From: a bacterium
Lineage (GTDB): Bacteria; Sumerlaeota; Sumerlaeia; SLMS01
Direction of reading: 5' to 3'
Assembly: GCA_016125005.1 (NCBI GenBank)
Contig: WGMQ01000054.1
Span: 1-64,000 of the forward strand
Length of the DNA stretch: 64,000 bases
How positions within the stretch are numbered: the stretch's first letter is position 1; every line of letters starts with the position of its first letter. Position numbers and translations under genes: made by a program. A model generated the notes under the pieces. That model searched no databases. It was not told the DNA's origin and worked only from the letters and a program-made list of their open reading frames with translations. Shown here one piece after another: positions 1 through 64,000 of this stretch.

Positions 1-406
1 CCGTTCGTCACCGTCACCAGCACCCCGCCGATCCCCGTCTCGCCATCGTCCTTCGAGCCGTTGCCGTTCGTGTCCGTATAGACAGTGCCCGTGACGCTAC
101 CGCGCAGCTGGTAGCCGTCGGCGGTATCGACCGAGGAGCCGCCCACCACCGTCACCGTCGTCGGGTCGTTGCCGCCCGTCTGCACCGCACCAGCGGGGAG
201 GTCCGCGTCGTTGACATTCACCGAGGCTTCGCCAGCGGGCACGCCGCTGACCGACCAGGTACCGTCCGCCTCCGTCGTGTCCGTGAAGCTGCCGCCGAGG
301 CCGTTCGTCACCGTCACCAGCACCCCGCCGATTCCCGTCTCGCCATCGTCCTTCGAGCCGTTGCCGTTCGTGTCTGTATAGACAGTGCCCGTGACGCTAC
401 CGCGCA
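1..406 (-). repeat. Tandem repeat, 300-bp period, in the surface-protein gene
   Basis: Bases 1-106 and 301-406 are identical except at two positions (33/333 and 75/375). Both differences look synonymous in the minus-strand frame. The period of exactly 300 bases equals one 100-residue SdrD-like module. Each copy carries one GTATAGAC octamer (76-83 and 376-383). Near-identity at DNA level points to recent duplication or gene conversion, and more copies may lie beyond base 1. Confidence 0.85.
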
Positions 407-3400
407 TCAGCAGGGTGAAGTCACCTGAGTTGTTCGTCTGACCCGCGGTCAACGTGATGGTCACCGGGTTGGTGCTTGTCACGCTGGTGCCCGCCGGAAG
501 CGAAGCCGTCACCGGGGAGACGCGATATTGGCCCGGCGCAAGCCCGGTGAAGGAGTAGTTGCCGGAAGCATTCGTCGACTGGGTGCCGTAATTGATATCG
601 TCCGAGGTGCCGAAAGTATTGTCGGCCCCCAGGCCAATCAGGTTGATCTGCACGCCGCTGGGGAGCGTGTCCGTCCCAGCCTGGTAGGTGCCGTTGCCAT
701 TGATGTCCACAAAGACAAAGTCGCCGATGGCGCCGAGCGCGTCGTTGCGCGTGGCCGTCGTGGGAACCGTGTTGGCCGAATAGAGAGTCGCGCTGTTCGT
801 CAGCGTGGTCACACCGGATGGAGCGGGCTGGACTGGGATCGCCTGGAAGGTCGCCGTCACCGTCTCGCCCGGGTAGAGCGTGAAGCCCTGCGCCAGAATC
901 GAAGGCGACGATCCGACCAGCGTCGTCGTCGTCCGCGTGGTGTACTCGATCTCGACGTTGTCGACGTAGACGATATCGTCGTTCCCGAGGCTCGAAGATG
1001 TCAGGAACCGGATGCGGACGTTGTTGTTGCCGGCAAACGCCGCGAGGCTGGCCGAGAATGGCAGGTATGCCGCATCGGTGGTGGTTCCGCTCGCGGCGCC
1101 GGCGATGGCGCTTCCTAGCTGCGTCCAGGAGGTACCGTTGCTGGAGGCCTGCACCACGACATTGTCGTTGGCGTTGTCGAGTGCCTCGCGACGGTAGATG
1201 AAGCGGAGGGTCGGATCCACGGCGCCGGTCAGGTTCACCGAGCGAGTGATGCTCAGGTCGTTGTCCTTGATGCGCAGGCGGCTACTGCCCTGATCGGAGG
1301 TGATAATGATGTCGCCACCTGATGCGTCTGTCGATTCGCCGCTTTCCGTCCACGAACTGGCGGTGGTGTTGGCGCGCCAAGTCTGAGTACCGCGATTGAG
1401 GCTGTAGCTGGCGCTGTCGAAATAGTCTGCAACGGTCACGTAGTTGCCGTTGATCGGGCGGGTGATAGTCGAGGTTCCACTGACATAGGTCAACGAATTG
1501 GGGAGCTGATCCCAGAGCGTCACATTCGTGGCAGCGTTTGTCGCACCGGTGTTTTGGGCCGTGATGGTGTAGGTGATGGGATCGGTCTGGTGCGTGCGCG
1601 TGCTGGCGTTGCTGGTCTTGGTGACACTGACCGTTGTCGTTGCCGGTCCGGCCACCAGAATGTCGGCTGTGGCAGACGGACGGAAGATCGCGTTCGTGGG
1701 GTCCGACTCGTTGACGATACTGGTTCCGAAGGCGGAAGCCGTCGACGTGTTCAAGCCGGCATTGGAACCGGTCGTGCTGGCCTGATAGGTGATCGTGATC
1801 GTCTTGTTTGCCAGGAGATCGTGATCCAACGCCCAGGTGAGATTCAGGCCGCTGACTGACGGATTCGCCGTCGAGTTGGGCGTGCCGTCGTCATAGGTGA
1901 CCGTCGAGCTTCCACTCACATAGGTCCAGCCTGTCGGCATCGTCGCATAGATGTCCACGTTGAACGTGTCGTAGGAGGAAGTCTTGACAGTGGTGGTGAA
2001 GGTTGCCGTCCCGCCACTTGAACTCATCGCAATGGGGGTCGCCGTGTGGGTAATGCCCAGCACTGGATCGTACCAGTAAAGGGGAAGGACCGTGTAGCCC
2101 TGATCGTAGTCGGGATTCGGCTCGTTGGGTGTAAACTCGGTGTCGTCCTGACCCCAGGCGAGCTGGAACGGGCCGTTTCCGTAGACGTGCGCACCCGTCG
2201 CTACCGTGTCGGGATCATAGACCTGACGAGTGTCAAAGCGGTTCATCAGGTAAGTGCGATCCGCGACGCCGTCCGTATTGAAATCCACGTAGACAGTGGT
2301 GTTGTCGTTCAGCGGCGTGACATGCAGCGGGTTGTTCGGAGCGAAGGGGACGTAGTAGTCATTGAGGAGGAAGTCGACGGGAAGAGCCTGATGACCCCAG
2401 TCCACGTTATCGCGCTGGTCGTCGCTGGCCACCAGAACCTGAATCTTCTTGGTGGTATCGGTGGAACGGAAACGAGCACCCAAGCGACCAGCACGCTGGC
2501 CGGCCGTGGCCCGCGGCATCTGGAAACGAAAGACGTCATTGGCGTTCAACACCTGGGTCGTCGTCCCCGAGGCTGTGCTGATCTCCACCGTGGTGCTGTT
2601 GGACTTGGCGAAGATGTAGGCTGCGGTGTTGACGTTACGGCCGCCTTCCTCGTTTGTCGGGTGCGTCATTGAGGGGACGCCAACGATGTATTCAGAGCCG
2701 ACGAAGGAATCCGGGCTGAGCGAGTAGTAGCGGCTGTCGATGCCACTCGTGCTGGTGTAGAGGTGGGCCTGAACGGGGCGAGGTGTGGAGGACCCGTTCA
2801 GGGTTGCCACCACCGTGGTGCCTTTCAGCACACCCGTCTGCTTGATCGACTTTCCTGCGGCAAGGACCGTGGATGAGAGCTGGGTTCCAGTCGGTCCGTA
2901 GACGATAACGCGCGTGTTATCGTAGCGCGCCTGAACGAAAAGGTCCGTCAATGTGAATGGCTTATTGGTGTTTCCCGCAGCCGCAGGAATATCCGTACCG
3001 ATAGGGACCGTGAAGGTGGACTGCCAATACTGGACGGGGAAGAGGGGCCAGGAGCCCGACACGAAAGTGCCCGGATCATCCGCCCAGCAAGTACGCACCA
3101 CTGAAACCGGAGCGCCCGTGACGTAGATGCGATCGCCAGCATCGATGCCCTGACTGCCGGTCACGTAGGTGTTGGTCTCGGAAAGCGTCAGCACCTGACC
3201 CCGGGTCAGCGCTGCTCCCTGCTCGCCGGAACCGGTCGTCGCCACGTCCCACTTCGCATCTGCCGTCGTCAGGGGACTGGCAGGATTGAACTCGTAGCCA
3301 TCCTCCCACTCGTCGATGAAGATCTGGACGTTATCGGCGCTTGAAACGATGCTGAGGACTGAGTTGATGTTTGCTGCCGTCTGACTCGCGGGCGCCCCGG

Positions 3401-5738: not shown

Positions 5739-8700
5739 ATGGCTCGAGGACCGGCCACTTTTGCGCATGAACCACAGGCACAAAAGCGTGTGATTGATTC
5801 CACACTGCGCGTGGCCTATATCTGCGCGCGATTCCCCAAATTGTCTGAGGTTTTTGTCGCCAGGGAACTGGAAGAACTCCGTGCTCAGGGCGTGCAGGCA
5901 GAGGTTTACTCGCTGCTGTCCGGCGAGCAGGGTGGGATGAGCCCTGAGGTCCCCGTCCAAGGCCGCCCTTCGCTGACGCGAATGATTGGGAATCACCTCC
6001 GCGAGCTGGCTTCGCATCCGGTAGGATACCTCAGAGCGCTCGGGATTGCACTGAGTGCAATCGGTGGCGGGCCGCGGGAACTTGCTGAGGGCGTCTATCT
6101 GTTTGCGGTGAGCGGGTCCTGGGCGGGGGCGATCCGGTCCTCCGGCGTTTCCCGAATTCATGCGCATTTCGCCGGTGCCCCAACGACAGCGGCCTGGCTG
6201 GTCTCCACGATGACCGGCCTACCCTTCAGCTTCACCTCCCACGCAAACGACATATTCGTCAAGCCATGGGCCTTGAATGCCAAAATTGAGTACTCAACCC
6301 ATGTTGTGACGGTTACTGAGTACAACCGGCGCCATCTGGCAAAGCTCTGTCCCGGGGCGGAAGGTAAGCTACACGTGCTGCCGACGGGCCTTCCGAGCGA
6401 CGAGATGGCGAGCGCATCTGAGCGGTCGGTAGAGCCGGGATTCGTGCTGGCGGTCGGTCGGCTGGTTCCCAAAAAGGGGTTCGCTGCCTTGATCGAGGCC
6501 TTCGCCCTGCTCAGGGAGAAAGGAACCGTCGCCCGCTGTGTGATCGTGGGAGATGGTCCCGAGCGCCATCGCCTGTCAGCACTCGTCAAGACTCTTAACT
6601 TGACTGACTGCGTGGAGCTGTTGGGTGCGCGAGGCAACTCGGAGGTCGCTGACCTTCTTGGCCGCGCCGCGGTTTTCGCCCTACCCTGCCGCATCGCAGC
6701 GGATGGGGATCGTGATGGTCTCCCCCACTCCATCATGGAGGCGATGGCGGCGGGCGTGCCGGTGGTTTCCACTCGGGTCGTGGGGATCCCTGAACTGGTT
6801 GAGGACGGTGTCTCCGGCCTTCTTGTGGAGCCCGATGATGGGGCGGCTTTGGCCGATGCGATTGAGCGCCTGGTGACGGATCGTCAACTGGCGGCTCGAC
6901 TTGCAGCCGCCGGGAAAGTTCGGGTCAGGGAAGTCTGTGACCTGACGAGCATCGTGGCGCGACTGAAGGCGCTCTTCAGCACGGCGACCCTTCGGAGTGT
7001 GGGCGTGGCTTTCCTGCTCGGCGGGCTGACGGTGGGGCCTGCGATGGCAGCGGAACTCTTTCCTGATCCAGACCTCAAGACGCCTGAGAAGTTCCTCCGC
7101 CCCTACTCCAATTTCGGAAAGAGTGATCCGGTCATTGGCTGGAAGTCCCGTATCGAGGCGGGCCGAGCAGTCGTGACCGGCGACCAGCGGCAGCCCGCCG
7201 CACGAGTGGGCGTTCGCACGGTTCCGGTGCCGCTCGGCACGGGCGACTATCTGGCAAAGATTCGGGTGAAAGGCTCGGGCATCCGCCGGTTGGGGCTCTA
7301 TGCGATTCTGGTGGATGCGTCGGATAACGCCCTGGCGACGCAGGAACTTGTGGGGCCCGCGGGGGATTTCGACTCCGAGTTCGCGATGGGACTGACCGTC
7401 CAGCCTGAGCAGGCGAAGGTTGAGGCGCGTGTCATCCTGTACGTGTTCCATGACGGAGTCGGCACCTTCGAAGTGACGCATATAAGCATCGACGATGCGA
7501 TTGGCGCGGAGCGGAAAGTGGCCCCGCGACGCGACCTGAAGCCGATCTTTCAGCGTTTGGTGCTGCCCGGTCCGCTGTTCAGCGCCGACTTCCCGTCGAG
7601 CAATACGGCGCTTCTGCCGGGCGAGCGGCGCTTTGTGGACGGCGCGGTGAGTGCCGACGGTGCGGAACTCTTCACCATGTCGAATCGCGAAGTGGCGCTC
7701 TCCTGGGAAATGGGAGTCGAGGCCCCGACGCCGTTCTGGCTGACGCCGACCGAGAGCCCTGCACCGGGCGATCACGTGGTCAGCCGCGTGACGGGCATTC
7801 CTTCCGCAGGCGTTGAAGCCCTCCCTCCCCTGCCTGCCGAGCGGGGGGTTTACCTGTTTTACTATGGCGCCTATCGCTACGGCAAGAAACCGCGCGACCT
7901 GAAGAAGGACGCGGCTGCGCTGGCGAAGTTGCGCGAGGATGGGGTGACCGGCATCGGATTCTGGGATGACTACGGGCTGGATCTGCACCGGCTTCAGGAG
8001 GGCAAGGCTCTCGACGGCTCCTACATGGTGACGATGGCGGAGGAGTACAAGAAGGCCGGCTTCACCTCCCCGATGCTGTTCTGGGTCCTCGGCGGTCTGG
8101 AGCGCGGCCGCGTGGCGTGGACCAGCGGCAGCGAAGAGGAAATGCGTCTATACATCGAGGCGCTGAAGCCGTGGATCGCACAGGCGCGGGAGAAGCTGGG
8201 CGACATCCCGCTTTGGGTGTGCCCCGCGGACGAGCCGGACGACACGGATCGGCAGGCGCTGGCCCTCAAGCAAGCGACGCTTTGGAACTCGATGATGGAC
8301 GGCGTGCCGAACTTCAACACGACGAACTGGCAGACAGCGCGCCGCCTGGCGGGAAACACGCATCTGGTGCTGGGCTCGGGCTCGCTCCCTTCCTTCGAGG
8401 AGGCGGCGAAGCTGAAGGTGGACATGAGCTATTGCAGCCTGGATGCGAACCTCCCACCGATTCGCTATCGGTACCTGGGCGGTGTCTATACATGGGCCTC
8501 GGGGATTCCGTCGCAGGGATACTGGCACGCGGAGTCCATCGCGGGGAAGATCACGAGTGACCTTGACGGTCACCTGGTCGACTTCGTGGCGCGCGAGAAC
8601 AGCGGCGAGCGCCTGGGCGTTTGCTACGCACAGTTGCTGAACGGGGTCGAGGACCTACGGCTGCTGTGCGCGTTGGAGCAGAAGGCTTCCAGCAGCGGCC

Positions 8701-12466: not shown

Positions 12467-13939
12467 ATGGCAGGTGTTGAGGGCAGCGAGATGAGGGGCG
12501 TCGCGGATGCGTCGCCCCTCAAGGGGTTCGGTGCCCTGCTTGCCAGCAGCTTGGCGGCGCGGGCTCTTGGGCTGCTCAAGCTCCTGCTCTTTGCACCATT
12601 GCTCGGCCCTGCGGCCTTCGGGGCATTCCGCCTCGCTTCAAGCGCCGCCAACATCATGTTCTCGCTGGCCGCCCTCGGCATTCACACCAGCTATCTCCGC
12701 TACCTTCCTGAACTCCCGCGCAACGCCCAGCGCCGACGCTATATGCTCCGGTCGCTGGCACTCTCCATGGGCTGCACGCTGTTTGTGGCACTGCTGCTGC
12801 AACCGGTGCTCCCGCGGGTGACGATGTTCATTTTCTCCGAGTCGACAGATCCGGTACTGGCGCTTTTGCTCTTGGTGGCGCTGCCGACGATCCTACTCTA
12901 CCAGTCGGGTACGGGAATCACGCGAGGCCTCGGGCTTTTCGCAGCCTCGGCGTTTGGCGAGGTGCTGCAGAACTTCCTCCACGTGGGGCTCGGTCTTGCT
13001 GCAATCATGGTCCTTGGAGTTTCCGCGTCGGCCGTCTTCGGCGCCATGCTCGTCGGCTTCCTGGTCGCGGGAGTCCTCATGTTGGCGATGGGACTTCGGG
13101 CGACACCCAAGGATGCCGGCGACGCAACGTTACCAGTCGGCTTCGGCGGGCGCGTGCTACGATTCTCCGTGTGGTACGCCCTGATCCCGGTCTGCCAGTA
13201 TCTGTTCGACTTCACGGATCGCTGGGCGCTGGCGCGCTTTCGAGGACTTGAAAGCGCGGGGGTGTACTCACTGGTGCCGCTTTTCACGGGGGGGATGATC
13301 GTCCTCGGGACAAGCCTGGCCCCGGTTGTTGCGCGAACGTCGACGTTGGCTCTCTCATCGAAGACCGGCCCTGTCTATACAACGGTGTGGTCGTCAATCT
13401 CCATCGCGGTGCTGGGATCGCTGGTGTACTCGGTGGCCATTCGGCTCGGCGAGCCGCTGATCTGGATGGTCGCATCGGGACAATGGGCTGCCGCAAGTTC
13501 GACAGTCCCGTGGTTTCTCGTCTACTTTTCGTGGTTCAATGCGTACTATGTGATCGGAGCCATCGCCACCGTCGAGGAAGCAACGTGGGTACACTTGGCA
13601 TCGCTCGGCGTGGGTGGAGCGATGAACCTTGCGCTGAATCTGATTCTGGTTCCCTCGCATGGCATGGAGGGGGCTGCATTTGCCACGTGTGTCTCGATCC
13701 TCGGCACAATCGCCACGCACGTGGCCTTTGTCCAGTTCCGTGGCATCCCGATACCGGGCAGGTTCTGGGTCGCCTTGGCGCTTCCGCTATGCGCGCTCAT
13801 GCCGGTCTGGGCGCTCGTGCCGGTGTGCATCCTTGCTGCGGTACTGGCGGCAGGAACCAGCCTGATTGTTGATGCTCAAGGGAAGGCGGAGTTGCTTGCC
13901 TACTGCCGTGGAATCGTCAGGAGGTTCCGTCGCCCATGA
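12467..13939 (+). CDS. Polysaccharide flippase, Wzx/MATE-like
   Basis: Product of 490 aa from ATG 12467, preceded by AAGGAAG at good spacing; a longer frame from 12278 runs through the previous gene and is rejected. The sequence is almost entirely hydrophobic with about 12-14 transmembrane helices, starting with the family-typical GALLASSLAARALGLLKLLL and containing LGPAAFGAFRLASSAAN. Wzx proteins move lipid-linked repeat units across the inner membrane. It sits between the Wza/Wzz export genes and further glycosyltransferases and ends in an ATGA overlap with the next gene. One octamer (13373) lies inside it. Confidence 0.85.
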   Translation: MAGVEGSEMRGVADASPLKGFGALLASSLAARALGLLKLLLFAPLLGPAAFGAFRLASSAANIMFSLAALGIHTSYLRYLPELPRNAQRRRYMLRSLALSMGCTLFVALLLQPVLPRVTMFIFSESTDPVLALLLLVALPTILLYQSGTGITRGLGLFAASAFGEVLQNFLHVGLGLAAIMVLGVSASAVFGAMLVGFLVAGVLMLAMGLRATPKDAGDATLPVGFGGRVLRFSVWYALIPVCQYLFDFTDRWALARFRGLESAGVYSLVPLFTGGMIVLGTSLAPVVARTSTLALSSKTGPVYTTVWSSISIAVLGSLVYSVAIRLGEPLIWMVASGQWAAASSTVPWFLVYFSWFNAYYVIGAIATVEEATWVHLASLGVGGAMNLALNLILVPSHGMEGAAFATCVSILGTIATHVAFVQFRGIPIPGRFWVALALPLCALMPVWALVPVCILAAVLAAGTSLIVDAQGKAELLAYCRGIVRRFRRP

Positions 13940-14889
13940 GCGAACCTCTTGTCTATACAGTGGTGGTGCCGACCATGAACCGGCCGGAGGAACTGTGCAA
14001 GTGCCTGAAACTCGCCATCGCGCAGGATCCTGCTCCCGCGGAGTTGCTGGTCATTGATGATGGCAGGCTCGATGAGGATGCATTGCGCAGTTCGCTGGGC
14101 AAAGCAGCACCGCCGCTTCGGGTCGAGCGAAAGGAACGTCCGGGTCTGGTCGCTTCGCTGAACATTGCGGGAAAGCTCTGCCGCACGCCATGGTTGCTGG
14201 CTCTGGACGACGATATTTATCTGGAAGCCGGTTACATGCGGGCCTGCCAGGACGCGGTCGATCGCCATCCTGACCGCGCGCGGCTTGCTGCTATCGCCGG
14301 CTATCCGCTGCTGGCCGGTCGAAGCCGAACTTGGCGGGCGGCGATCCGCCTCGCCATCGAACGGCTTTTCCTGCTCAACGGGCTGGCGGAGGGACGATTC
14401 CTGCCGTCGAGCTACTTCACCGATTTCGAGTGCGGGCGTCCCCATCGCGAGCCTTGGGCAGTGGAGCATGTGCCCGGCGGCCTGGCCCTTTGGCGCACCG
14501 ATGTTTTTCGCGATCTCGGATACGATCCGTGGTTCGAGGGATACGCCTATGGCTGCGACATGGAGTTGGCCTATCGCGCCACGCGCCAATGGGAGGCCAT
14601 CTGTGTCCCGACCGCCCGGGCACTCCACGACAAGAGCCCGCGTTCGCGAGTTCCGAATGCGCGTATGGGCGAGCTGAAGGTCCGCAACCAGCGCTACTTC
14701 TACCGAAAGCACTTCGCTGGTTCGTTGTTACACTTCGTGTGCTTTCACTGGGCGCTGCTGGGACAGGTCGCGATGCTGACGCTCGCAGCACTGACGGCGC
14801 CGCGGTCGTTTGGTGTTCGGATAAGCGAAGTGGCGGGAATGATCGCCGAGATCTGTCGCCCGTGGCCGATCGTGGGAGGACGCTCATGA
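13936..14889 (+). CDS. Glycosyltransferase family 2
   Basis: Product of 317 aa. YTVVVPTMNRPEEL at the N-terminus, LLVIDDGRLDED and the metal-binding LALDDDIYLE are the GT-A motifs. Later segments HVPGGLALWRTDVF and YGCDMELAYRATRQW (the acidic acceptor-site region) agree with rhamnosyl/hexosyl transferases of family 2. A weak hydrophobic stretch near residues 270-285 may associate it with the membrane. The start overlaps the flippase stop and its stop overlaps the next start, both as ATGA, so translation is probably coupled. The octamer at 13951 falls in codons 6-8 (V-Y-T). Confidence 0.85.
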   Translation: MSEPLVYTVVVPTMNRPEELCKCLKLAIAQDPAPAELLVIDDGRLDEDALRSSLGKAAPPLRVERKERPGLVASLNIAGKLCRTPWLLALDDDIYLEAGYMRACQDAVDRHPDRARLAAIAGYPLLAGRSRTWRAAIRLAIERLFLLNGLAEGRFLPSSYFTDFECGRPHREPWAVEHVPGGLALWRTDVFRDLGYDPWFEGYAYGCDMELAYRATRQWEAICVPTARALHDKSPRSRVPNARMGELKVRNQRYFYRKHFAGSLLHFVCFHWALLGQVAMLTLAALTAPRSFGVRISEVAGMIAEICRPWPIVGGRS

Positions 14890-16010
14890 GCCAGCGTCCG
14901 CGTCGCATTGCGTTCGTGCTCGATACGCTGGAGGTTGGCGGGATTCAGCGCCAGTTGCTCGAGGTATGCCGTGCGCTGGTGGGGTCTGGCTGGCAGGTGA
15001 GGATTCTTTGCCTGCGCAGTGACGGCGCCGCGATGGAGCCGCAGTTCCGCGCCGCAGGCTGTCGGGTCAAGTTACTGGGAAAGCAGCAGCGGTTCGATTG
15101 GGCTGCCATCATGCGGTTGCGCGAGGCCCTCCGTACCCCCCGTCCGCATGTGGTTCACGCCATGACCCCGCAGTCGGCGATTTGGTGCAGCATCGTCCTA
15201 CCTTTCCGACGCCGACCTGCCTTCGTGGGAGCATTCCTGAATACCTTCGCATTCGACAAGGAACTCCCCCGCTGGGCAGAGCGCCTGATTGTGCGGCCGC
15301 GGCTCGACGCCGTGCTGGTGAACTCCCGCGCGGCGCGTCGTCTATACAAGAAGCGCATCAGCGACGGCGTTCCCATCGCGTGCATTCACAATGGGGTCGC
15401 GGAGTGTCCGCCAGTGGACCGCGTGGCGTTACGCGGATCGCTTGGCTTCGCTGCAAGCGTTCCCCTCATCGTGGCCGTGGGGCGACTGGTTCCGGTGAAG
15501 GGGCTTGAGTTCCTGATTAGGGCATTCGCTCGCATCGCGCCGCAACATCCCGAGGCACGCGTCTGCCTGATCGGCGATGGTCCGTTGCGCAAGAGCCTCG
15601 GCTGGCTGGCGACGCGCCTTGGCGTGGTTGATCGGGTGCATTTTCTTGGCGAACGTGAGGAGCCCATGGCCCTCCTGCCGGCCTTCGACATCCTTGTGCT
15701 GCCATCACTCAGTGAAGGCCTGCCGAATGCATTGCTCGAAGGCATGTCGGCGGGACTCGCCTGCGTGGCGAGCCGCGTTGGCGGCATCCCGGAGATCGGC
15801 GATAAGTCAGGTGTCGCTTTGGTCGAGCCCGGCGACATTGCCAGTCTTGCGGAAGCAATCGGGCGGTTTGTGGAGAACCAAGGCGAGCGGTTGGCCGCTG
15901 GTGAGGCGTCGCGAAGATGCGCAGCCGGGCAGTTTCCCATGCAGAAGATGATAGACCGGACGTTGTCGATGTACGAGAAAGTCCTTCGGAAGAATGGAGC
16001 CAGGCGATGA
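14886..16010 (+). CDS. Glycosyltransferase family 4
   Basis: Product of 374 aa from ATG 14886; the longer upstream frame is a shadow of the previous gene. IAFVLDTLEVGGIQRQLLE is the typical N-terminal GT4 glycine-rich strand. The C-terminal Rossmann half has VAVGRLVPVKGLEFLIRAF, IGDGPLRKSL, VHFLGERE and the donor site LPSLSEGLPNALLEGMSAG. These are retaining GT-B enzymes acting on lipid-linked intermediates at the cytoplasmic face. Part of the coupled cluster (ATGA overlaps at both ends). Sugar specificity is unknown. Confidence 0.88.
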   Translation: MSQRPRRIAFVLDTLEVGGIQRQLLEVCRALVGSGWQVRILCLRSDGAAMEPQFRAAGCRVKLLGKQQRFDWAAIMRLREALRTPRPHVVHAMTPQSAIWCSIVLPFRRRPAFVGAFLNTFAFDKELPRWAERLIVRPRLDAVLVNSRAARRLYKKRISDGVPIACIHNGVAECPPVDRVALRGSLGFAASVPLIVAVGRLVPVKGLEFLIRAFARIAPQHPEARVCLIGDGPLRKSLGWLATRLGVVDRVHFLGEREEPMALLPAFDILVLPSLSEGLPNALLEGMSAGLACVASRVGGIPEIGDKSGVALVEPGDIASLAEAIGRFVENQGERLAAGEASRRCAAGQFPMQKMIDRTLSMYEKVLRKNGARR

Positions 16011-42763: not shown

Positions 42764-43956
42764 GAAGTTCCCTCGCTGCTGGCCCGGCGAATGCCGCCAT
42801 AGCCATGCTTGCCGCGAATACGATCAAGCGCGGCGTGCAGGCGGTCGCGCTTCTCGCGCCCCTCTTCTGCCAACAGGTCCAACTGAGCGCTGGATTCCGT
42901 CAAACCAGAGGTCGTGACGCCAAGCAGACGGATGGCTCGCCTGCCACCCCACTTGGCCGCGAGAAGTCCGCGCGCCGCCTCGAGGATAGCCAACTCGTCG
43001 TCCACGGGATAGGCGAGCGTTGTGGCGGCGGTGTGCGTCTCAAAGTCGTGGAATCGGTACTTGAGCGTTATCGTGGATGCCACGATACCTTCGGCGCGAA
43101 GGCGGGACGCGACTTTCTCGGAGAGAGCACTCAGCGAGGCGTCCAGCACTTCCGCATCGGAGCAATCGCGATCAAAGGTCTCCTCCGCGCCGATGGACTT
43201 GGCTGGCTCGTGCTCGGTGACGTGCGCGGAGGAGACGCCGCTGCAACGGCTGTATAGATCGCGACCATGCTCGCCGAAGTGCTTATCAAGTGTGGCCGCC
43301 CCGAGCGTCACCACGTCGCCAACACGGCGCGCCCCGATGGCATGGAGCCGTTCGGCGATACGATGCCCCACGCCGGGGATTCGCTCGATGGGAAGCGGCG
43401 CGAGGAAACGCTCCTCGCTGCCGGGCGGCACCCATAGGAGGCCCTTCGGCTTGCAAAGATCACTGGCCACCTTGGCGACAAGGCGGTTGGAGCCGATCCC
43501 GATGGAGCAAGGGAGCCGGGTCTCGGCGAGCACATCGCGGCGGAGGCGCTCGGCGGCAACGAGCGGTGTGCCGTATAGACGCCCGGTTCCCGTCAGATCC
43601 AGGTAGGCCTCATCCTGCGAGGCCATGCGGACCACAGGCGCGTAACGGCGGAAGATCTCCGCGAGTGCGGCCGAGTGCTTGGCATACATCCCGTAGCTGC
43701 CGCGCACCACGACGAGTTGGGGGCATAGGCGCATCGCCTGTCCCATCGGCATGGCGGATCGCACCCCGAATCGACGGGCTTCGTAGCTGGCGGAGGAAAC
43801 CACGCCGCGCCCGTCCGGTGAACCGCCTACGGCAACGGGCAGGCCGTTGAGACTCGGATCAAGCAGTCGCTCGACCGACACATAGAAGCAATCCATGTCC
43901 ACGTGCATGACCACCGTTTCCGCGGGGGTGACTCCCTGGGTGGACTGCTGGAGCAT
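42760..43956 (-). CDS. dinB: DNA polymerase IV (Y-family)
   Basis: Product of 398 aa from ATG 43956 (GAGG eight bases upstream); the frame to 44064 overlaps the regulator gene and is rejected. Error-prone translesion polymerase. Catalytic carboxylates are in VMHVDMDCFYVSVE and SQDEAYLDLTG. Further family segments: VAVGGSPDGRGVVSSASYEARRFGVRSAMP, CSIGIGSNRLVAKVASDLCKPKG, the helix-hairpin-helix PIERIPGVGHRIAERLHAIG, and the little-finger domain. It lies 10 bases after the NtrC-type gene, so it shares its transcript. No LexA-type box is evident. Confidence 0.95.
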   Translation of the reverse strand: MLQQSTQGVTPAETVVMHVDMDCFYVSVERLLDPSLNGLPVAVGGSPDGRGVVSSASYEARRFGVRSAMPMGQAMRLCPQLVVVRGSYGMYAKHSAALAEIFRRYAPVVRMASQDEAYLDLTGTGRLYGTPLVAAERLRRDVLAETRLPCSIGIGSNRLVAKVASDLCKPKGLLWVPPGSEERFLAPLPIERIPGVGHRIAERLHAIGARRVGDVVTLGAATLDKHFGEHGRDLYSRCSGVSSAHVTEHEPAKSIGAEETFDRDCSDAEVLDASLSALSEKVASRLRAEGIVASTITLKYRFHDFETHTAATTLAYPVDDELAILEAARGLLAAKWGGRRAIRLLGVTTSGLTESSAQLDLLAEEGREKRDRLHAALDRIRGKHGYGGIRRASSEGTS

Positions 43957-45445: not shown

Positions 45446-48400
45446 TTAGTTGGCGGTGGAGGGACCGGCGGAGCCAAGGCCCCGGCGAATTCGGAAGCCG
45501 ACGATGGTGATGTCGTCGCTCTGGGCGGAGGTGCCGGTGAACTGGCGCACGCCTTCGCGAAGTCGCTTGATGTCAGCTTCGATGGAATGGCCGCTGTCGG
45601 CAAGCGTGGAAAGGATGCGCGGGAGCCCAAACTCCTCGCCGACGGCGTTTGCCGCCTCGTCGACGCCGTCGGTGTAGAAAACCACCTCGTCGCCGGGTCG
45701 GAGTTGGATGGAAGCTTCCTCGAAGTGCATGTCAGGAATAATGCCGATCGCGGGGCCGAGGGCCTCGTCAAGTTCCGTGGCGACACCGCGCCGGATGAGC
45801 ACCGGCGAGGGGTGACCAGCGCGCGTGTAGGAGAACTCCAGCGTCTCCAGGTCAAGGATCCCGTAGAGGAAGGTGAAGTACTGGGTGATCTCCAGGTTCA
45901 TCGGGAAGCGGCGATTCATGGTCTCGGACACCTCCGCAGGCGAGCAGACATGGACGGCGCCGTCCTCCTCGCGCAGGAGCGCGCCCGATCCGTCCAGCAC
46001 GGCCGTCATCGAGCGGCTGAGCGACATGGAAAGCAGCGCCGCGGGGACACCGTGGCCGGAGACGTCGAGGATATAGATGCCGACCTGCTTATCGCTGAGA
46101 CGGATGAAGTTGAACATGTCGCCGGCAACTTCCTCGCAGGCGTTGAAGAGCCAGCCGAACTCGACGTGGGGAATCTCGAGCTTTTCCTGGGGAAGGCGTG
46201 AATGCTGGATGCGGGCCGCGAGCTTCAGGTCTTCCTTGATGCGAGAATGGGCGTCGGCCAGTTGCTGGGTGTAGCGGCGCCGCTCCTCCTCCGCCTGCTT
46301 GCGCTGGATCGCGTTCGCAATCTGGGAGGAGACGAAGGTCATCGTCTGCACGTCTTCCTGCTGGAAGTGACGGTCGCTGGTGTAGCTCTGCAAAATCACC
46401 GCGCCGATCACACCGTCCTGGGTGATGAGCGGCACACCGAGCCAGTTCTTCGTCGGCTTGCCGACAGGGGTGACTTCCCCGCGAGCGTACATGGCGTTGA
46501 GTTCCCCTTCGTCAACCAGGAGCGGCTTGGCATTCCGCACGATGTAGCCGGTGAGGCCCTTGCCCACGGGGCGGGTGGCGAGATTCAGGTCCACGCCGGA
46601 TTCGCGCGCGTAGGGGAAGCTGATGGTTTCCGCGTCGCGCTCGTAAAGCGCCACGTATAGATTGGTGGTGTCGATGACGGCGCTGAGGCTCTGGTGGAGG
46701 CTTCGGAAGAAGTCCTGCAGGTCAGCGCTCGTGGCGGCGGCCTGGGAGATTTCGTAGAGCACGCGATTGAGTTGCTCGGTGTGCTTGCGAAGCGTGATGT
46801 CCTCGAAGGTACCCACGAATCCGGTCAGCTGGCCGAAGTCATCCTGCATCGAGGCCCAGCGAATGCTGACCCAACGCAGTTCGCCATCGGCGCGCAGGAC
46901 CCGGGCCTCGCGCCCAACAGAGGACCCTTCATCGCGGGAGAAAATCCACTCGATCTTGAACGTCTGGCGATCCTTGGGGTGAATAGCCTCCAGCCAACCT
47001 TCGCCGAGCGATTCGGCGAGGCCGCGCCCGGTGATCTCCTGCCAACGCTTGTTTGTATAGATGCAACGACCGTCGGCGTTCACCTGAAAGACGCCGATGG
47101 GCGACGAGGAACTGAGCGAGCGGAAACGCTCCTCGCGCTCGCGGAGGGCCCATTCCACGTCGCGGCGCTCGGTGATGTCGTGCACCACGCTCTGGAATCC
47201 GTTGGGGCGGCCGTCCTCGAAAAGGAGTGTGGTGGTTTGCTCGATCCAGCGCCGACTTCCCTGCTTGGTGATGATCGGGAATTCGTAGACGGATTCTTTC
47301 TCACGGGCGCGCAGTTGCCGCAGATAGAAGGTCCGCACGGTGGCGCGCCATTCGTCATCCACGAGCATCGAGCAATTGTGGCCGATCAGTTCCGATTCCG
47401 AGTAACCGGTCAGCCTGATGATGGGCGGGTTGACATAGGTGAATTTACCCGGGATGTCCGTTGTATAGACAATGTCGCCCGCCTCCTCGATCATGCGGCG
47501 ATAACGCTTCTCGCTCTGGCGTAGCTCATCGCGGGCGTGCTCGCGTTCGATGGCGCTGGCAATGTGGCCCGAGACGAAGTTCATCACCCATGCATCGCGC
47601 CGTGTGTACTCGAGGCCTTCCTCGTGGCTGTGCACCGCCATGAGGCCCACCATCTCGCCTTTGCTGATGAGGGGAACGCCGAGCCAACTGACACTGGGGC
47701 GACCCGTGTTCGCACGGATGCGTCCTTCGTTTGTCAGGCGACGGAAATCCCCCGCGGCCAGCAGCAACGGCTTGCGGGTCTCCAGCAGAAGGCTGACGAG
47801 TGACTTGGCCACGGGAAGCGTCCGCTGTTCGCGGTCCCCGTAGAGTTCATCGACCGAGAATACGATTCGATAGGTTTCGTGTCCGGGGTCGAGCAGCGCG
47901 ATGTAGAAGTTCGTGACGTCGAGCACCTGAGAAAGGGACTCGTGGATGGCGTTGTATAGCCCTTCCAGATCCTGGGACTGGTTCACCGCCTCGGTCAGGT
48001 GCTGGAGGGAGCGCTCGAGGCGCTCCTGACGGCGCTTTTCGGTGAGGTCACGAATGATGGCGGTGTACGAGACTTCATCGCCCAGGTGGAACTCGCTGAT
48101 GTCGATCTCCACGGGGAAGAAAGTGCCATCGTGCGAGAGGGCGGAGAAGTGGCTGGTGGATCCCGGTTCTCTATCCCGATTTGCCTTCGCAAGGAACTCT
48201 TGGAATCTGGCGCCCTCCACCGCCTCGAACGCCGGGATCAGCGCACGAATGTCGCGCTGGATGGCCTCGGAGTGCTTGTAGCCGAAGAGGCGTTCCGCGG
48301 CACTGTTGAAGAGGTCGATCTTTCCGTGCTCGTCGAAGGTAACGATGGCGTCGGCCGCGTTGTCGATGATCGCGCTGGTGCGGGCCTTCTCGAGCGTGAT

Positions 48401-57103: not shown

Positions 57104-60100
57104 ATGAGACGATTGTCGATTCTGGTGGCGATGTGGAGTTTCGTGTGGGCGAGTGCGTTCGCCGTGACCTTTCGCGACCTAGTGCCTGGCGCCGGCCTGC
57201 CGGGCACCGACGTCCGATTGTCCGCCACGGAGGCGCTGGCAGGGTCGTTTTCCGTTCGGATCGGTGAGACAGGGGCTTCGATCCCGGCCACCGTCGAGGG
57301 AAGCGACCTACTATTCGCCATTCCTCCCGGCACCACGACGGGCGATGTCTTTGTCTCCGCCGATGGCGGGGACTTCGAGAAGGCCGGCTACACCTTCCGG
57401 GTGGCACGGGCGGTTCCGGTCCGCTTTGACGTGCCCAATGCGGGAGTCTTCGTCAGTCACGATGTGGGCTCGACCATCGAGGACGCGGTGCTTGAGCAGG
57501 GAACGCTGATGGTGCTGGTGCCGGTCGGCGAGACGGCCCTCATCGCAGCTACCGCGGAGGACCCCGAGGCTCCGCAGCTCATGGCGTTCATCACCGACTC
57601 GATGACGGAGGCCGTGCTCGGTGCGGAATCAACCGCGACCGCGATGGTGTTCCTCTCCCCCGGCATCCATTCGTCGGATCCGGTGGAAGCCGATCCTCGG
57701 CTGGCTGCGATCCGGGCGCTCGACGGGGTCGTGCAGGCGGCACAGGTAGCGAACTCCCATCTGGCGGTCGGACGTGATTTTCTTCAGGACGCGCGCTATG
57801 AGGACGCGCTGGTCGCCGCCCTGACGGAGTACAGCCAAATCGTGGCGGCGGGCATCGATGAAGAGTTGGAGGAAAAGGGATCGCAGGGGGAAAAGCTCTC
57901 CGAGGATACGGTGTCGGAGGACTACGATTTTGCGAACGGGAGCCCGCGCGACCTGCCGGGGGCCATCAACGTGCTTCTCGCGAGTGCCATGGACCCGACC
58001 GTGGATGCGAACAACGTTCCGGTTCGGCGCATGAATCTGGAGGGACGTCCCCTGGGGGTGCTCGGCAAGAAGATCAACCCGCTCGATTGGATCGCCCATG
58101 CGTGGGCATTGGACCCGGAGCAGTTCTCCGGACTCGCCGAGGTCAACGCGATGACCGCTGCCCAGGCGGAGGCCCGCGTCTATACCCGGCAGGGGACGCA
58201 GCCGGTTTCCTCGCTGAGCGTGAAGGCCACCAACGTCCTGAAGAACTTCAACCTGATCGACGTGGTGGCGGATGCCCTGCTGGGTTTCGCGCCTAGCTTT
58301 CCGCCGAAAGACGGCCTCGAGTTCCCTGCGGATCGGGCCGGGGTGTACATGGTGAGGTCGTACAGCGGCGCCGTGTATCCGGCGCTTGATCCGCTGATAT
58401 CCGCGCTCCCCGAGGGTGGCGATGAGGACGCGGCCATGAAGGGGATCAACGTGGTCCTCGCCGTGGTGGATTTTGCCTCCATCTTCCTTCCGATCAAGAC
58501 GATCCTTGGGAACGAACTGCTGGCAAAGATCGCCTATCGTTCCGCGCGGGAGGTTACAGCGGCCATCATTCGCGAGGGGAACGAGGGGCGCGCCCTGACG
58601 GCGGAGTTCGTGACCACAGTCTTTCTGGAGGTGGCGAAGGGAATCACGAAGCAGATCTTCTCGACTCTGGCGGATCTGGGGCTGAAAGCCATCCCACGGC
58701 TTGGAAAGTCGGTGGCGAAGTTCGTGAACGTGCTGGGCAAGGTGGCCAGTGGTGGCGCCGCGGTGGAACGCCTGGCGGCGCTCACCAACGCTTCACGCAT
58801 CCTCAGCGAGAGGGCGTTCTTCGCGCCGTCGGTGGAATCCTCGATCGTGGTGATAGGCGATCCGTTCGCACCGGAAGTGGTCGAGGTTCGCCCCCGGCGC
58901 GCACATCGTGGACGCTTTGTCACGCTGACGGGACGCCGGTTCCTTGATGGCCAGGCAGCAGCCCACATCGTCCGCTTCGGCGGCGGGGGCACCGATCCCT
59001 ACCAGACGGGCGGTGCCGGGCGCGTGATCGTGGCGACCCGCGACACGCTTGTTGTGGAAGTGCCCGAGGAGGCAGAGACCGGTCCCATCACCGTGGCCAT
59101 CGTGGATCGAGGCGTGGCGAATACCGTGCGAATCGCAGATGGCATGGGGCTGTTCACGGTCATCCCCGATCCGGTGATCACGGCAGTGTCGCCGTCGTCG
59201 ATCATCCCGGGCGGAATGGTCCGCGTGGAGGGAAGCGGCTTTGCCGCCGTGATGGAGGACAACCGTGTCACCTTCTCGGGGAGTTCCAGCCAGGCCCTTT
59301 CCGTCCTGGTCGGTACGGATAGCGAACTGCTGGTGCAGGCTCCCTCGGATCTCGCCAGTGGCACGGTGACAGTGAAAGTCGGCAACCGAACCAGCAATGG
59401 GTTCCCGCTGAGTACGGTGCTTCCAGCCATCATCCCCGCGGGCGGCACCCTCTTCGTCAGCACCACCGCCGACAACACCGCGGCCGACGGCCAATTGACT
59501 CTTCGCGAAGCGATGCTCCATGCCTCCGGTCGACTTGGGCGCGCGCTGACCTCGCCCCCACCCGACCCGCCAGAGGGTTCCTCCTACGAGTCCAACTTCG
59601 TGAGTGGGAGTCCCGGAGCCGGCGTCCGCGATCAGATCATCGTCACGTTCTCCGATCCGACCGTGCTGACTCCCGGGGCACCGCTCCCCACGTTCGGGAA
59701 CTTTGACGAGGTCCAGTTTACCAACGTGACGATCAATGGCGCCACTGCTGGAGGGGACGGCCTTGTCTTCGATGGCATCCGCAGCCGGATACAGAATGTT
59801 ACGGTAACGGGATTTGCGGGAAACGGAGTTCGGTTCACGGGTGATGCGCTCGGTTGCGAGGCCGCGCGCGTGAAGGTGCTATCTCCCGGTGCTCACGGCG
59901 CTCTGTTCGACGGAAACGCCCAGCTCAACGTACTTGATGCGTTCTCGGTCGAGGATGCAGTCGGCGATGGCGTGCGACTGGAGGGGAGCGGGGTGCGGTT
60001 CAACCGCATGACGCGCCCGGGCGTGACCGGGCCGGACGTGGACATCGGGCACATCCTGCGATCGGGTGGCCACGGTGTCGTCATCATGGGGGGCGCCACG

Positions 60101-62845
60101 GCGAACTGGCTCGCGTTTGGTGACGTCATGCAGAGCGCGCAAGGGGGAGTGCTGGTGGCGAGTGACTCGCCCGGGAACATGCTGGGTCGGGCGGACAGCT
60201 CGATCGGTATCTTCCCAAAGGTCTTCTCGAACCAGGGTCCCGGCGTGACCGTCGAGGCCGCCCGCACCGCTGTGCGCTACCTGAACGTGGGCTCCAACGT
60301 GGGCGACGGGATCCTGCTTCAGGGCGCCTCCGCCACGGACTGCATTGTGGATTTGGTACGGGTAGGCTTTGAATACGACACGGGGGCGGCGGCGCCGAAC
60401 CAAGGGCACGGGATCCATATCCGCTCGGGGGCTTCCCGCATCTTGGTCGGCCGTCGGGAGAACTCGAGCTTTGGCGCTCGCACGAGTATCGCCGGGAACC
60501 GCGACGATGGGATTCGCGTCGATGGCACCGCCGGGGGCGCTTCCTTCGTCGATGTGAAGCACTGCCACATCGGCCTGGCAATCTCGGGCATTAGCAGTGA
60601 GGTTTCCCGCGGCAACGGAGGCGCGGGGGTCGCCCTGGTCAATGCCAGCGACTGCGAGATTGGTGATCTCTCGACGTCGCTCGACGTCCACATCAACAAC
60701 CATGCGACAGAGGGCATCCTGATCTCGGGAGAAGCATCGACCCGCAACCGAGTGTTCAACTGCCAGATCGGCAGCCACCACGACGGGCGGGACGGCATCG
60801 GCAACGCCGTGGGTATCCGCGTGGCAGGGGGCGCTTGGCGAAACATCATCGGGCAGCGCAATGGTCCATTCTTCGCCTTCGACGGCGCCTTTTTCCTGGA
60901 TGGAAAGGGGGCCAATGTGATCATGAACAACAGCGACGCTGGCATCGTGCTGGCCAGCGGCGGCGATCCCACCACCACGCAAAACCCCACGGATCCGCCC
61001 TCGGGCGGCAATACAATCATCGGCAATCGCATCGGCGGCCCCGCGGACAACAACCCGATCCATCGCGGTAACGGCGTGGGACTGCGCCTTGAGGATGGAG
61101 CCCGTTACAATCGCATCGGCGGTCGCGAGGAAGGGGACGCGAATCGCTTTGCGGCGAACATCCGTGCGGGAATCCATATCAACGGAGGCAAGGTCTCGGG
61201 GCGCTCTGTGAACCGCATCATCGGCAACACCTTCGAGCGACAGGGCGAAACGGCTCCACCGTCTGGGGACCCCCTCACCTCTCGACCCGACGGAGTTGGC
61301 GTCCTCGTCACGGGCGGAGCCACGGGGCACCTCATCGGCAGCAGCGATCCGATTTCAGGAAACGAGTTCACCGACAACATGGTCGGTGTCTATACAGAGG
61401 ACAGCGAGGAAATCACCATCGCAGGGAACGAGTTCACGGGCAACGTTTTGGCGGGGGCGATCCTGCTCAATAGCCAACGCTGCGTTTGCGGACCCCACAA
61501 CACTCTGCACACCAACGGAAACAATACCGACCCGCTCGCAGCCATCGTGCTGGCCGGTGGCGGAGAGCACCGCGTCTGGGGGAACGAAATCGGCGGCCGC
61601 GCGCCCGACGATCCGGTCGAGCTCGGTAACCAGGGACATGGGGTCACGATCCTCGACAGCGCCGACAACCTGATCGGCGGAGGCAACGGCGCGGGCAACG
61701 TCATCGTCCGCAACCAAGGCAACGGGATCCTGATTCGAGGGGTCGGCTCAACGGGCAACCAGATCGCGACAAACCGGATCGGCACGCGAACGAACTTCGG
61801 CCCGGCCCCCCGTCCGAACACAGAGGACGGCATTCGGCTCGATCAGGGCGCCAACAACAACACCATCGGTGGCATGCTCACGATCAACCGGGCCGGGGCC
61901 CAGCTTGCCCTCCCCGTGGGCAACAAGATCGTCGCAAACGGGATGCACGGCGTGCACGTGGACGGCGCCGCGACCATCGCCAACACGATCACCTGGAACG
62001 CGATCGGCGACCACGACGAGCTTTCCGGGTTCCTTGGCATTCACCTCAGCAACGGGGGCAATCAGTCGCTCGCTCCGCCCGCCATCACCCGGTTCGAGGC
62101 AGGCGTCATCAGCGGCACTTCGACTGCGCCGAATGGAAGCCTGGTACAGGTCTTCTGTGACCCTTCGGATGAGGGCATGATCCTTCTCGGCGAGGCGCTC
62201 GTCGCGGGCGGCGAGTGGAACATCCTGCCCGGTCTCGTCCTCCACCCAAACCTGACCGCAACCGTCACCCACGTCACCACGGGCTCCACCTCCGAGTTCG
62301 GCACCCGCATCCACATTGATGACCTGCGTGGACCCGCCCTGGTCGTGCGCCGCTCCGACCGGGGCGCCCCCCAGGACGCACCCGTCTTGGGCGGACGCCC
62401 CTCCGCCATTCATGACTTCGAGCTGGAGAGCGACGAATCCCCCATCCGCATCACCGGCATGGAGTTCCGCCTGAACCCCGACCTGACCCAGCCACAACTC
62501 GCCGACCTCCCCTACCTGCTCCATGACACCAACGAGAACGGCCGTCCCGACGCGGGAGACCGGATCATCTCCGGCCCACCGACCGACGATGGGACCACCG
62601 GCGTTTGGAACTTTGATGACATCGACGTGGTCATCGACCCGGGAAGTGTCCAGCGATGGCTGCTGGTCGGCACCGTCAGTGGCACCACGGGACCATTCCA
62701 GTTGAGCATCGAGTCCGCCACTTCAGTGGATTCTGTCGTGTTGTTCCCCGCCGCGCTCATCACCGCAACCGGCCCGTTTCCCGTCCCGGCGGACAGGCTG
62801 ACGCTGATCGAAGTCGTCGATCCCACCCAGTGGACGCTGTATTGA
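57104..62845 (+). CDS. Giant secreted protein: TIG domains, CSLREA-like motif, parallel beta-helix
   Basis: Product of 1,913 aa from ATG 57104 (GGGAG seven bases upstream), starting with a signal peptide (MRRLSILVAMWSFVWASAFA). Residues 20-590 are a mixed region with two hydrophobic alanine-rich stretches. Two IPT/TIG-like sandwiches follow (about 589-682; 687-775, ITAVSPSSIIPGGMVRVEGSGF). A CSLREA-type start (STTADNTAADGQLTLREAM, about 784) introduces a long right-handed parallel beta-helix to about 1690, with repeated GNRIGG, HNIIGG-like and NGIRVDG turns (Asn-Gly-rich rungs). The C-terminus (1740-1913) is a beta sandwich ending PTQWTLY. An adhesin or polysaccharide-binding/cleaving surface role is inferred; no lyase catalytic site is evident. 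Confidence 0.82.
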   Translation: MRRLSILVAMWSFVWASAFAVTFRDLVPGAGLPGTDVRLSATEALAGSFSVRIGETGASIPATVEGSDLLFAIPPGTTTGDVFVSADGGDFEKAGYTFRVARAVPVRFDVPNAGVFVSHDVGSTIEDAVLEQGTLMVLVPVGETALIAATAEDPEAPQLMAFITDSMTEAVLGAESTATAMVFLSPGIHSSDPVEADPRLAAIRALDGVVQAAQVANSHLAVGRDFLQDARYEDALVAALTEYSQIVAAGIDEELEEKGSQGEKLSEDTVSEDYDFANGSPRDLPGAINVLLASAMDPTVDANNVPVRRMNLEGRPLGVLGKKINPLDWIAHAWALDPEQFSGLAEVNAMTAAQAEARVYTRQGTQPVSSLSVKATNVLKNFNLIDVVADALLGFAPSFPPKDGLEFPADRAGVYMVRSYSGAVYPALDPLISALPEGGDEDAAMKGINVVLAVVDFASIFLPIKTILGNELLAKIAYRSAREVTAAIIREGNEGRALTAEFVTTVFLEVAKGITKQIFSTLADLGLKAIPRLGKSVAKFVNVLGKVASGGAAVERLAALTNASRILSERAFFAPSVESSIVVIGDPFAPEVVEVRPRRAHRGRFVTLTGRRFLDGQAAAHIVRFGGGGTDPYQTGGAGRVIVATRDTLVVEVPEEAETGPITVAIVDRGVANTVRIADGMGLFTVIPDPVITAVSPSSIIPGGMVRVEGSGFAAVMEDNRVTFSGSSSQALSVLVGTDSELLVQAPSDLASGTVTVKVGNRTSNGFPLSTVLPAIIPAGGTLFVSTTADNTAADGQLTLREAMLHASGRLGRALTSPPPDPPEGSSYESNFVSGSPGAGVRDQIIVTFSDPTVLTPGAPLPTFGNFDEVQFTNVTINGATAGGDGLVFDGIRSRIQNVTVTGFAGNGVRFTGDALGCEAARVKVLSPGAHGALFDGNAQLNVLDAFSVEDAVGDGVRLEGSGVRFNRMTRPGVTGPDVDIGHILRSGGHGVVIMGGATANWLAFGDVMQSAQGGVLVASDSPGNMLGRADSSIGIFPKVFSNQGPGVTVEAARTAVRYLNVGSNVGDGILLQGASATDCIVDLVRVGFEYDTGAAAPNQGHGIHIRSGASRILVGRRENSSFGARTSIAGNRDDGIRVDGTAGGASFVDVKHCHIGLAISGISSEVSRGNGGAGVALVNASDCEIGDLSTSLDVHINNHATEGILISGEASTRNRVFNCQIGSHHDGRDGIGNAVGIRVAGGAWRNIIGQRNGPFFAFDGAFFLDGKGANVIMNNSDAGIVLASGGDPTTTQNPTDPPSGGNTIIGNRIGGPADNNPIHRGNGVGLRLEDGARYNRIGGREEGDANRFAANIRAGIHINGGKVSGRSVNRIIGNTFERQGETAPPSGDPLTSRPDGVGVLVTGGATGHLIGSSDPISGNEFTDNMVGVYTEDSEEITIAGNEFTGNVLAGAILLNSQRCVCGPHNTLHTNGNNTDPLAAIVLAGGGEHRVWGNEIGGRAPDDPVELGNQGHGVTILDSADNLIGGGNGAGNVIVRNQGNGILIRGVGSTGNQIATNRIGTRTNFGPAPRPNTEDGIRLDQGANNNTIGGMLTINRAGAQLALPVGNKIVANGMHGVHVDGAATIANTITWNAIGDHDELSGFLGIHLSNGGNQSLAPPAITRFEAGVISGTSTAPNGSLVQVFCDPSDEGMILLGEALVAGGEWNILPGLVLHPNLTATVTHVTTGSTSEFGTRIHIDDLRGPALVVRRSDRGAPQDAPVLGGRPSAIHDFELESDESPIRITGMEFRLNPDLTQPQLADLPYLLHDTNENGRPDAGDRIISGPPTDDGTTGVWNFDDIDVVIDPGSVQRWLLVGTVSGTTGPFQLSIESATSVDSVVLFPAALITATGPFPVPADRLTLIEVVDPTQWTLY

Positions 62846-63202
62846 GGATCGGGCGAAAGAGAACCGGGTGACGGTGATTGTCCCTCGCAGCCGCAGGGCC
62901 CGGTGCTAACCAGGAATGGAACGAAAGGAATAGGATCGGTGGCTCACCAACCTCAATTCGGCGCCAGGTAACGAACGCGCTGCACTCAATCAGTGCCGCG
63001 TAAATTTCGGGGACCCGGGTGGCAAAAGGGCCCGCGTTTTCCAGCGCCAGAGTCACGAGTCACCACGATTGTCTTCATCCTCGCATATCCCCCTGTGGTA
63101 ACCTCAAAGTGCCTGATCGTCTGCGGGACTCTCCCGATATTCCGCTGGACGCTCCTCGCTTCCCGGTAGCCTCTAGGCACGACTAGATTTGGAGGGATCC
63201 CC
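62846..63202. other. Intergenic region, nothing recognised
   Basis: About 357 bases between the beta-helix gene and the DUF4349 gene. No open frame with a ribosome site, no strong hairpin with T-run and no convincing promoter could be identified, although the promoter of the downstream gene presumably lies in its right half. Confidence 0.5.
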
Positions 63203-64000
63203 ATGCGGCAACTACTGTTTTCCACGATGATCGTCATGCTGACCACCGCCTGCGCCACCAGCGACTCGGCACCGCCGATGATGGTGAGCGACATGAGCAG
63301 AGTGGCACCCTCCGGCGCTTCGTTCGGCTATACGGCGTGGGATGGCATTCTGGAGTCTGGAGAGGTTGCTTCGCGCAAGATGGCGGCTTCGTCACCCGTG
63401 GCGGATCGCAAGATCGTCTATACGGCAAGCCTGGCCATCATGGTGAGCCTGCGCTCCACGGCGATCGAGCGGATCGGTAAGTTGGCGGAGGAGAAGGGCG
63501 GGATCGTTTCGCGTTCGTCGCTGCGGGACATCACGATCCGCGTTCCCCCCGACCAGTTGCAGGCAACGCTTCGCGAAATCGAGGCGCTCGGAGAGGTCCT
63601 TGACCGGAATGTCTCGAGCGATGACATCACCGAGTCCTATCGCGACGTCGAGGGGCGCCTGAGCACGGCGAAGGCCTCACGCGACCGGCTGCTGAAGCTC
63701 CTCGAAACCGCGGAGGAAACCAAGGACGTGCTCCTGATCGAGCAGGACCTGAGGCGCCTGACGGAGGAAATCGAGCAGATCGAGCGCTCGCTTCGCGGCA
63801 TGGACAACCAGGTCCAGTTTGCGACGATCCAGATAAGCGTCGAGGAGCGCGCCCGCGAGCAGGTCAATGTGGTGCGTCCGCCGTCCCCCTTCACCTGGAT
63901 GGAAAAGCTCGGCATCGACGAAGTCATGGCAACCCGCCGTAACCCCTCCCTCTCGGGACCGCGCCGCTCCCTGCCGTGGTTGCTGCATGGCAATCCGTTC
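63203..64000 (+). CDS. DUF4349 lipoprotein, 3' end beyond window
   Basis: ATG 63203 with GGAGG seven bases upstream opens a frame that is still open at the window edge (266 codons). The N-terminus MRQLLFSTMIVMLTTAC has a lipobox with Cys 17, so it should be a membrane-anchored lipoprotein. IVYTASLAIMVSLRST, EEKGGIVSRSS, ITIRVPPDQLQATL, LGEVLDRNVSSDDITESYRDVEGRL and the long coiled coil LIEQDLRRLTEEIEQIERSLR are the DUF4349 pattern. The usual C-terminal transmembrane helix is not reached. Function of the family is unknown. The octamer at 63416 encodes V-Y-T in the first conserved strand. Confidence 0.85.
   Translation, partial: MRQLLFSTMIVMLTTACATSDSAPPMMVSDMSRVAPSGASFGYTAWDGILESGEVASRKMAASSPVADRKIVYTASLAIMVSLRSTAIERIGKLAEEKGGIVSRSSLRDITIRVPPDQLQATLREIEALGEVLDRNVSSDDITESYRDVEGRLSTAKASRDRLLKLLETAEETKDVLLIEQDLRRLTEEIEQIERSLRGMDNQVQFATIQISVEERAREQVNVVRPPSPFTWMEKLGIDEVMATRRNPSLSGPRRSLPWLLHGNPF

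Follow-up and report, generated by a model that had tools for sequence, protein, structure and literature searches.

The window analysed here is the 64,000-nt stretch at positions 1 to 64,000 of contig WGMQ01000054.1 (assembly GCA_016125005.1). It comes from a 4.69-Mb metagenome-assembled genome of Candidatus Sumerlaeota (G000), and the feature in question is an octamer word, GTCTATAC, which recurs throughout it. The window contains exactly 32 copies of the word, spanning 76 to 63423, in agreement with the count and span given in the initial annotation. Dinucleotide shuffles predicted a mean of 0.16 copies (maximum 3 in 100) and an order-2 Markov model predicted 0.22. Set against about 0.2 expected copies, the enrichment is about 150-200 fold; the excess noted initially was therefore real, but the factor of 30-40 attached to it was too low. 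GTCTATAC is the top over-represented octamer of the window and also of the first 405 kb of G000 sampled (observed 118, expected 1.3). The whole genome carries 1,078 copies against 22 of a reversed control word, a count nowhere near expectation, and the earlier proposal of a genome-wide word comparable to the DNA uptake sequence (DUS), the uptake signal sequence (USS) or HIP1 holds. The word is about twofold denser in the window (50 per 100 kb) than in the genome on average (23 per 100 kb). A literature search for the exact word returned, among the matches listed, only primers and unrelated sequences and no earlier report. GTCTATAC is a real, family-specific, genome-wide DNA word.

All 32 copies lie inside open reading frames (ORFs), 30 of them in sense and 2 in antisense orientation, with none between genes. 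An SdrD_B-like surface protein gene at the left end (ORF 3-3629, minus strand) carries sense copies at 76..83 and 376..383, both on the minus strand and read in frame 0 as Val-Tyr-Thr (VYT). On the plus strand, a glycosyltransferase ORF (5739-8897) has one sense copy read in frame 1 as RLY (8146..8153) and one read as VYT (8484..8491). Single sense copies follow in genes for a polysaccharide flippase (ORF 12278-13939; 13373..13380, VYT), a GT2 protein (ORF 13936-14889; 13951..13958, VYT), a GT4 protein (ORF 14331-16010; 15340..15347, RLY) and an O-antigen ligase-like protein (ORF 15917-17371; 16262..16269, VYT), all on the plus strand. The minus-strand gene of a Calx-beta surface protein (ORF 17373-20525) holds sense copies read as VYT at 17695..17702, 17983..17990, 19123..19130 and 19990..19997, as RLY at 19527..19534 and 19764..19771, and in frame 2 at 19019..19026 (VSIQ) and 19712..19719 (LSIP). 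Returning to the plus strand, the SBP_bac_5 ORF 24024-25829 has a sense copy at 24772..24779 (GLY). ORF 25849-26832 of the importer operon has a sense copy at 26164..26171 (VYT) and an antisense, minus-strand copy at 26747..26754 (RID). The other antisense copy (29762..29769, minus strand, PYRH) lies in a plus-strand MrfA-like helicase gene (ORF 29523-31871), and metH (ORF 33448-37305, plus strand) carries sense copies at 36391..36398 (VYT) and 36521..36528 (RLY). Minus-strand genes with sense copies then comprise an ABC-2 permease (ORF 37364-38905; 38245..38252, frame 2, MSIQ), at whose locus a ATCTATAC variant stands at 38261 in the opposite orientation, an ABC (ATP-binding cassette) ATPase (ORF 38902-39636; 39313..39320, RLY), ORF 40229-42763 with no Pfam match (41433..41440, 41739..41746 and 42378..42385, all VYT), a dinB-type polymerase (ORF 42760-44064; 43573..43580, RLY) and a PAS/GAF/SpoIIE protein (ORF 45446-48844; 47463..47470, VYT). 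The last plus-strand sense copies, all VYT, lie in the gene of a 1934-aa beta-helix/TIG surface protein (ORF 57041-62845; 58178..58185 and 61388..61395) and in the ORF starting at 63203 (63416..63423).

Site-level statistics were drawn from 771 kb of G000 and 437 kb of G006, a second genome of the same family. The word forms part of a consensus YRTCTATACR(R), in which R at the second position is far more often G than A, and the signal is limited to about -1 to +10 around the word, with nothing beyond. In the window, a pyrimidine precedes 31 of the 32 copies and a purine follows 30, exactly as first annotated; the corresponding frequencies in G000 are 94% and 93%. The bases before and after the word vary independently of each other (p = 0.99 and 0.46 in two genomes), unlike the two arms of a hairpin stem. 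With no covariation, a hairpin formed by the outer bases was rejected, and the pairing of these bases suggested in the initial annotation found no support. Neighbours one mismatch away from the word are also raised, to graded extents (A1, A3, T/A8, C/G7). Positions 4 and 6 are the least tolerant: neighbours at position 4 are not raised, and position 6 is almost invariant.

A palindromic sister word, GTATATAC, differs from GTCTATAC at position 3 and is the minority form. ATCTATAC is a further variant, more one-sided than GTCTATAC, with sense-to-antisense ratios in genes of 52:3 in G000 and 33:1 in G006. This bias towards sense is pronounced in frames 1 and 2 but weak in frame 0, so codon context may contribute. 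An excess of GTCTATC in G006 was set aside, as for the most part it resembles the usual Val-Tyr codons, together with a weaker variant in antisense. In a few intergenic regions of G000 there are AT-rich composites, for instance GTCTAGCAATCTATACATCTAGATC, or hairpins of the form GATAG-CAAT-CTATC (window 37306-37363; L139 at 11911; L136 at 3108; C15 of G000 at 168022 and 10119). Composites and hairpins alike are built from degenerate pieces of the word and are possible gene-end elements.

The nearest named relatives of one protein from the window are in metagenome-assembled genomes of Candidatus Sumerlaeota. Among 40 Sumerlaeota genomes, strong enrichment of GTCTATAC was found in six of the seven members of the window's family (1078 copies in G000, 969 in G004, 930 in G006, 477 in G002, 274 in G005 and 247 in G001). 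The seventh member, G003, is not enriched (26 copies against 39 of the control). The other 33 genomes, comprising the sister family and the rest of the phylum, showed no enrichment beyond about twofold, and none of 251 genomes from outside the phylum had a comparable ratio of word to control. Enrichment of GTATATAC is confined to the window's family, where the share of this sister word differs by genus in a dialect-like manner: 102 places against 5 for the control in G000, 176 against 0 in G005, 197 against 13 in G004, and a weak trace in G003 (16 against 3). A tree of MrfA did not distinguish loss of the word from its late gain. An 11.8-kb sequence of the Sumerlaeota isolate SJ802 has no copy of GTCTATAC and three of GTATATAC (about 0.01 expected), and it possibly represents a relative with the palindromic form as its main word. 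The top octamers in contigs of one sister-family genome (G008, L110-L114) are ATTGAAAC and GGATTGAA, with about 45 copies in 100 kb, in an array that looks like CRISPR-type repeats.

The force on the word was expressed as K: for each frame, the odds of the word against its synonymous alternatives, scaled to codon usage. For this, words were masked and codon usage was determined within each quartile of third-position GC content (GC3). In G000, Val-Tyr-Thr was observed 99 times against 23 expected, and 97 of these were spelled as GTCTATAC, where about 14 would be expected. K reached 294, 271 and 96 in the sense frames and 98 and 35 in antisense frames. In G006, all 31 occurrences of VYT were spelled as the word, and K was 395 and 83 in the other sense frames and 115 and 16 in antisense. 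For most control words K was near 1 or below. The word is raised whichever open frame it falls in and on either strand; a single scaled force on the DNA word, with ln K of about 4-6, therefore accounts for most of the pattern. Gene-to-gene differences in word density were rejected as a sign of differing force, because density follows codon permissiveness and K stays broadly similar.

In genes of G000, 176 copies are in sense and 29 in antisense orientation, and their positions along genes look uniform. G006 also carries intergenic copies, 13 in 30.7 kb of uncovered DNA at a K of about 96, and confinement of the word to coding DNA was accordingly dropped as a rule. Intervals between convergent genes (4.8 kb) hold six of these, and those between divergent genes (6 kb) hold none. 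Sites arise through point substitution, not insertion: 29 comparisons of sites with homologues (48-70% protein identity) required no indels, so the insertion of a short element was rejected as their origin. Two sites were shared, and several homologues had the word, or a form one letter off, in the corresponding position or close by.

The explanation that we rate best, though tentatively, is a drive of the DNA-uptake type, i.e., uptake-biased recombination, that would hold the word far above chance. A putative type IV pilus minor pilin would bind the word. Word-bearing DNA would be imported through ComEC and recombined with the help of DprA and ComM, and alleles with the word, including those created by chance point mutations, would replace alleles without it. 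We infer both that import is sequence-specific and that import is the driver. Uptake agrees with the restriction of the word to one family, with the graded spectrum of one-mismatch neighbours and with the presence of competence genes. The count far above the control, the high K in sense and antisense frames, the origin of sites by substitution and an orientation that follows genes and not GC skew also count in its favour. ComEC, PilT-family ATPases and ComM/YifB were found in all seven family genomes. Canonical dprA was found in every one (partial in G002) except G003, the sole member without the word, which retains ComEC and a second dprA-like gene; the joint absence of dprA and the word in G003 is suggestive only.

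Known uptake sequences, by which a few other bacteria tell their own DNA apart, offer a close parallel. Point mutation and drive have built up DUS and USS; their one-off neighbours are raised too, and non-coding DNA holds more of them than expected (PMC1939737). Within genes, one of their orientations is the more frequent (PMC2346458), and they come in dialects and form inverted pairs near gene ends (PMC3630211). The Sumerlaeota word resembles DUS of Neisseriaceae and USS of Pasteurellaceae in its effective motif of 10-12 bp, its roughly 1,000-2,000 copies, its family-restricted distribution with variants and its raised one-mismatch neighbours. It likewise uses any open reading frame, has one orientation commoner in genes and occurs in genomes with type IV pilus genes and ComEC. 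The intergenic copies between convergent genes in G006 recall DUS at gene ends (PMC3630211). In contrast to DUS and USS, the word is unrelated to them in sequence, near-palindromic and from an uncultured phylum. The non-coding excess typical of DUS and USS is seen in G006 but absent in G000, and there is no diminishing return near other copies.

Several observations weigh against uptake. The strictly intergenic DNA of G000 (about 50 kb uncovered) contained no convincing copy, where a K near 90 would predict about 20. Apparent intergenic copies turned out to be uncalled genes or stretches with ambiguous ORFs, and of the three left uncovered, two fall in an ambiguous ORF and the other in a gene with Pfam support. 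Copies are clustered, and proximity to a second copy brings no reduction in K: in G000 it is about 280 at distances up to 300 bp and 46 at those above 3 kb, and in G006 the two values are 120 and 108. One word per imported fragment should suffice, so this lack of a drop counts against uptake; an additive effect of DUS number has been reported (PMC3630211), which softens the objection. A roughly threefold sense preference is left after codon correction (ln ratio 1.08, 0.55-1.58, in G000; 0.97, 0.33-1.55, in G006). ComEC, DprA, PilT and ComM/YifB occur throughout the phylum and thus fail to mark out the word carriers, and the presence of type IV pilus, ComEC and DprA is not diagnostic. G003 is only 80% complete, so its missing dprA may be an assembly gap. 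No receptor for the word was identified.

A possible but less probable explanation is an intracellular site resembling HIP1, at which a dimeric DNA-binding protein or an orphan methyltransferase would read the near-palindrome TGTMTATACA, each site being selected or repaired towards the word independently of the others. HIP1 is a palindrome linked to methyltransferases, and its centre is most intolerant (PMC4390886). The Sumerlaeota word shares with HIP1 (GCGATCGC, cyanobacteria) an extreme over-representation of an octamer and least-tolerant central positions, deviations at position 6 being almost absent, as at the centre of HIP1 (PMC4390886). It is near-palindromic, its perfect palindrome GTATATAC is enriched too, and its independent flank preferences resemble protein contacts rather than a hairpin. 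A force that is not weaker near other copies is consistent with such a site, as are intergenic copies in G006 that avoid divergent, promoter-type regions. However, HIP1 is a perfect palindrome whereas the Sumerlaeota word is imperfect and its palindromic form is the minority one. HIP1 is tied to GATC/CGATCG methyltransferases; the search for a cognate methyltransferase advised in the initial annotation found that N6/N4 methyltransferases (PF01555) and D12 methyltransferases (PF02086) do not track the word, other methyltransferase families not having been searched. PF01555 is absent from word-bearing G005, and PF02086 from word-bearing G002, G004 and G006. Our best guess is a drive acting through sequence recognition, with uptake first and an internal HIP1-like or DNA-binding role second.

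The word might instead belong to a new class of genome-wide words under an independent per-site force that is stronger on the sense strand of genes and is due neither to uptake nor to methylation. One example would be a site, spread over about a thousand places, that is linked to transcription or bound by a nucleoid protein; we consider such a class unlikely. More doubtful still is a role in the transcript or in transcription, with an RNA-binding protein or a pausing element reading the word on the sense strand. Such a role would suit the coding-only, mostly sense copies of G000, the sense preference that survives codon correction and the nearly all-sense ATCTATAC. However, antisense copies are still 35-100 fold enriched, the intergenic copies of G006 stand at a K of about 96, positions along genes look uniform, and the sense excess of ATCTATAC depends on the frame. 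A replication- or recombination-polar motif such as Chi or KOPS is very improbable. The word is, like Chi, an oriented octamer found mostly in coding DNA, and its roughly 1,000 copies in 4.7 Mb are comparable in number to Chi sites in E. coli. Its over-representation is far above that known for Chi, and on a 188-kb contig, the one on which replication polarity was assessed, its orientation follows the genes and not the GC skew, which is positive over most of the length. Least probable of all is the view that codon, di-codon or protein-motif usage (for instance in VYT-rich surface proteins) produces the excess as a side effect, and the frame analysis refutes it. VYT is the reading of half of the copies, surface proteins contain several of them, and density depends on the codon-usage tolerance of the gene, but K of about 35-300 holds in three sense and both antisense frames despite their differing codons (including the rare CTA, ATA, AGA and TCT), VYT is almost always spelled in this one way, and most control words show no such force, so that the di-codon explanation raised in the initial annotation fails by synonymous-spelling odds.

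To our knowledge, words repeated about a thousand times through point mutation are found in very few lineages, and we know of none with an accepted function other than the proteobacterial uptake sequences. The Sumerlaeota word adds a clear example from a distant phylum, and its relatives with less or none of it allow gain and loss of machinery to be matched to the word. Through it, sequence-specific sexual isolation might be uncovered in uncultured bacteria, or the role of HIP1-like words might be better understood, and it provides a simple marker of DNA native to this Sumerlaeota family in metagenomes. Apart from the word, the window contains a protein-arginine-kinase-like gene (53071-54222, with an ATP:guanido phosphotransferase domain) adjoining a gene for a ClpC-like ATPase (54353-56869), an arrangement comparable to McsB-ClpC of Firmicutes.
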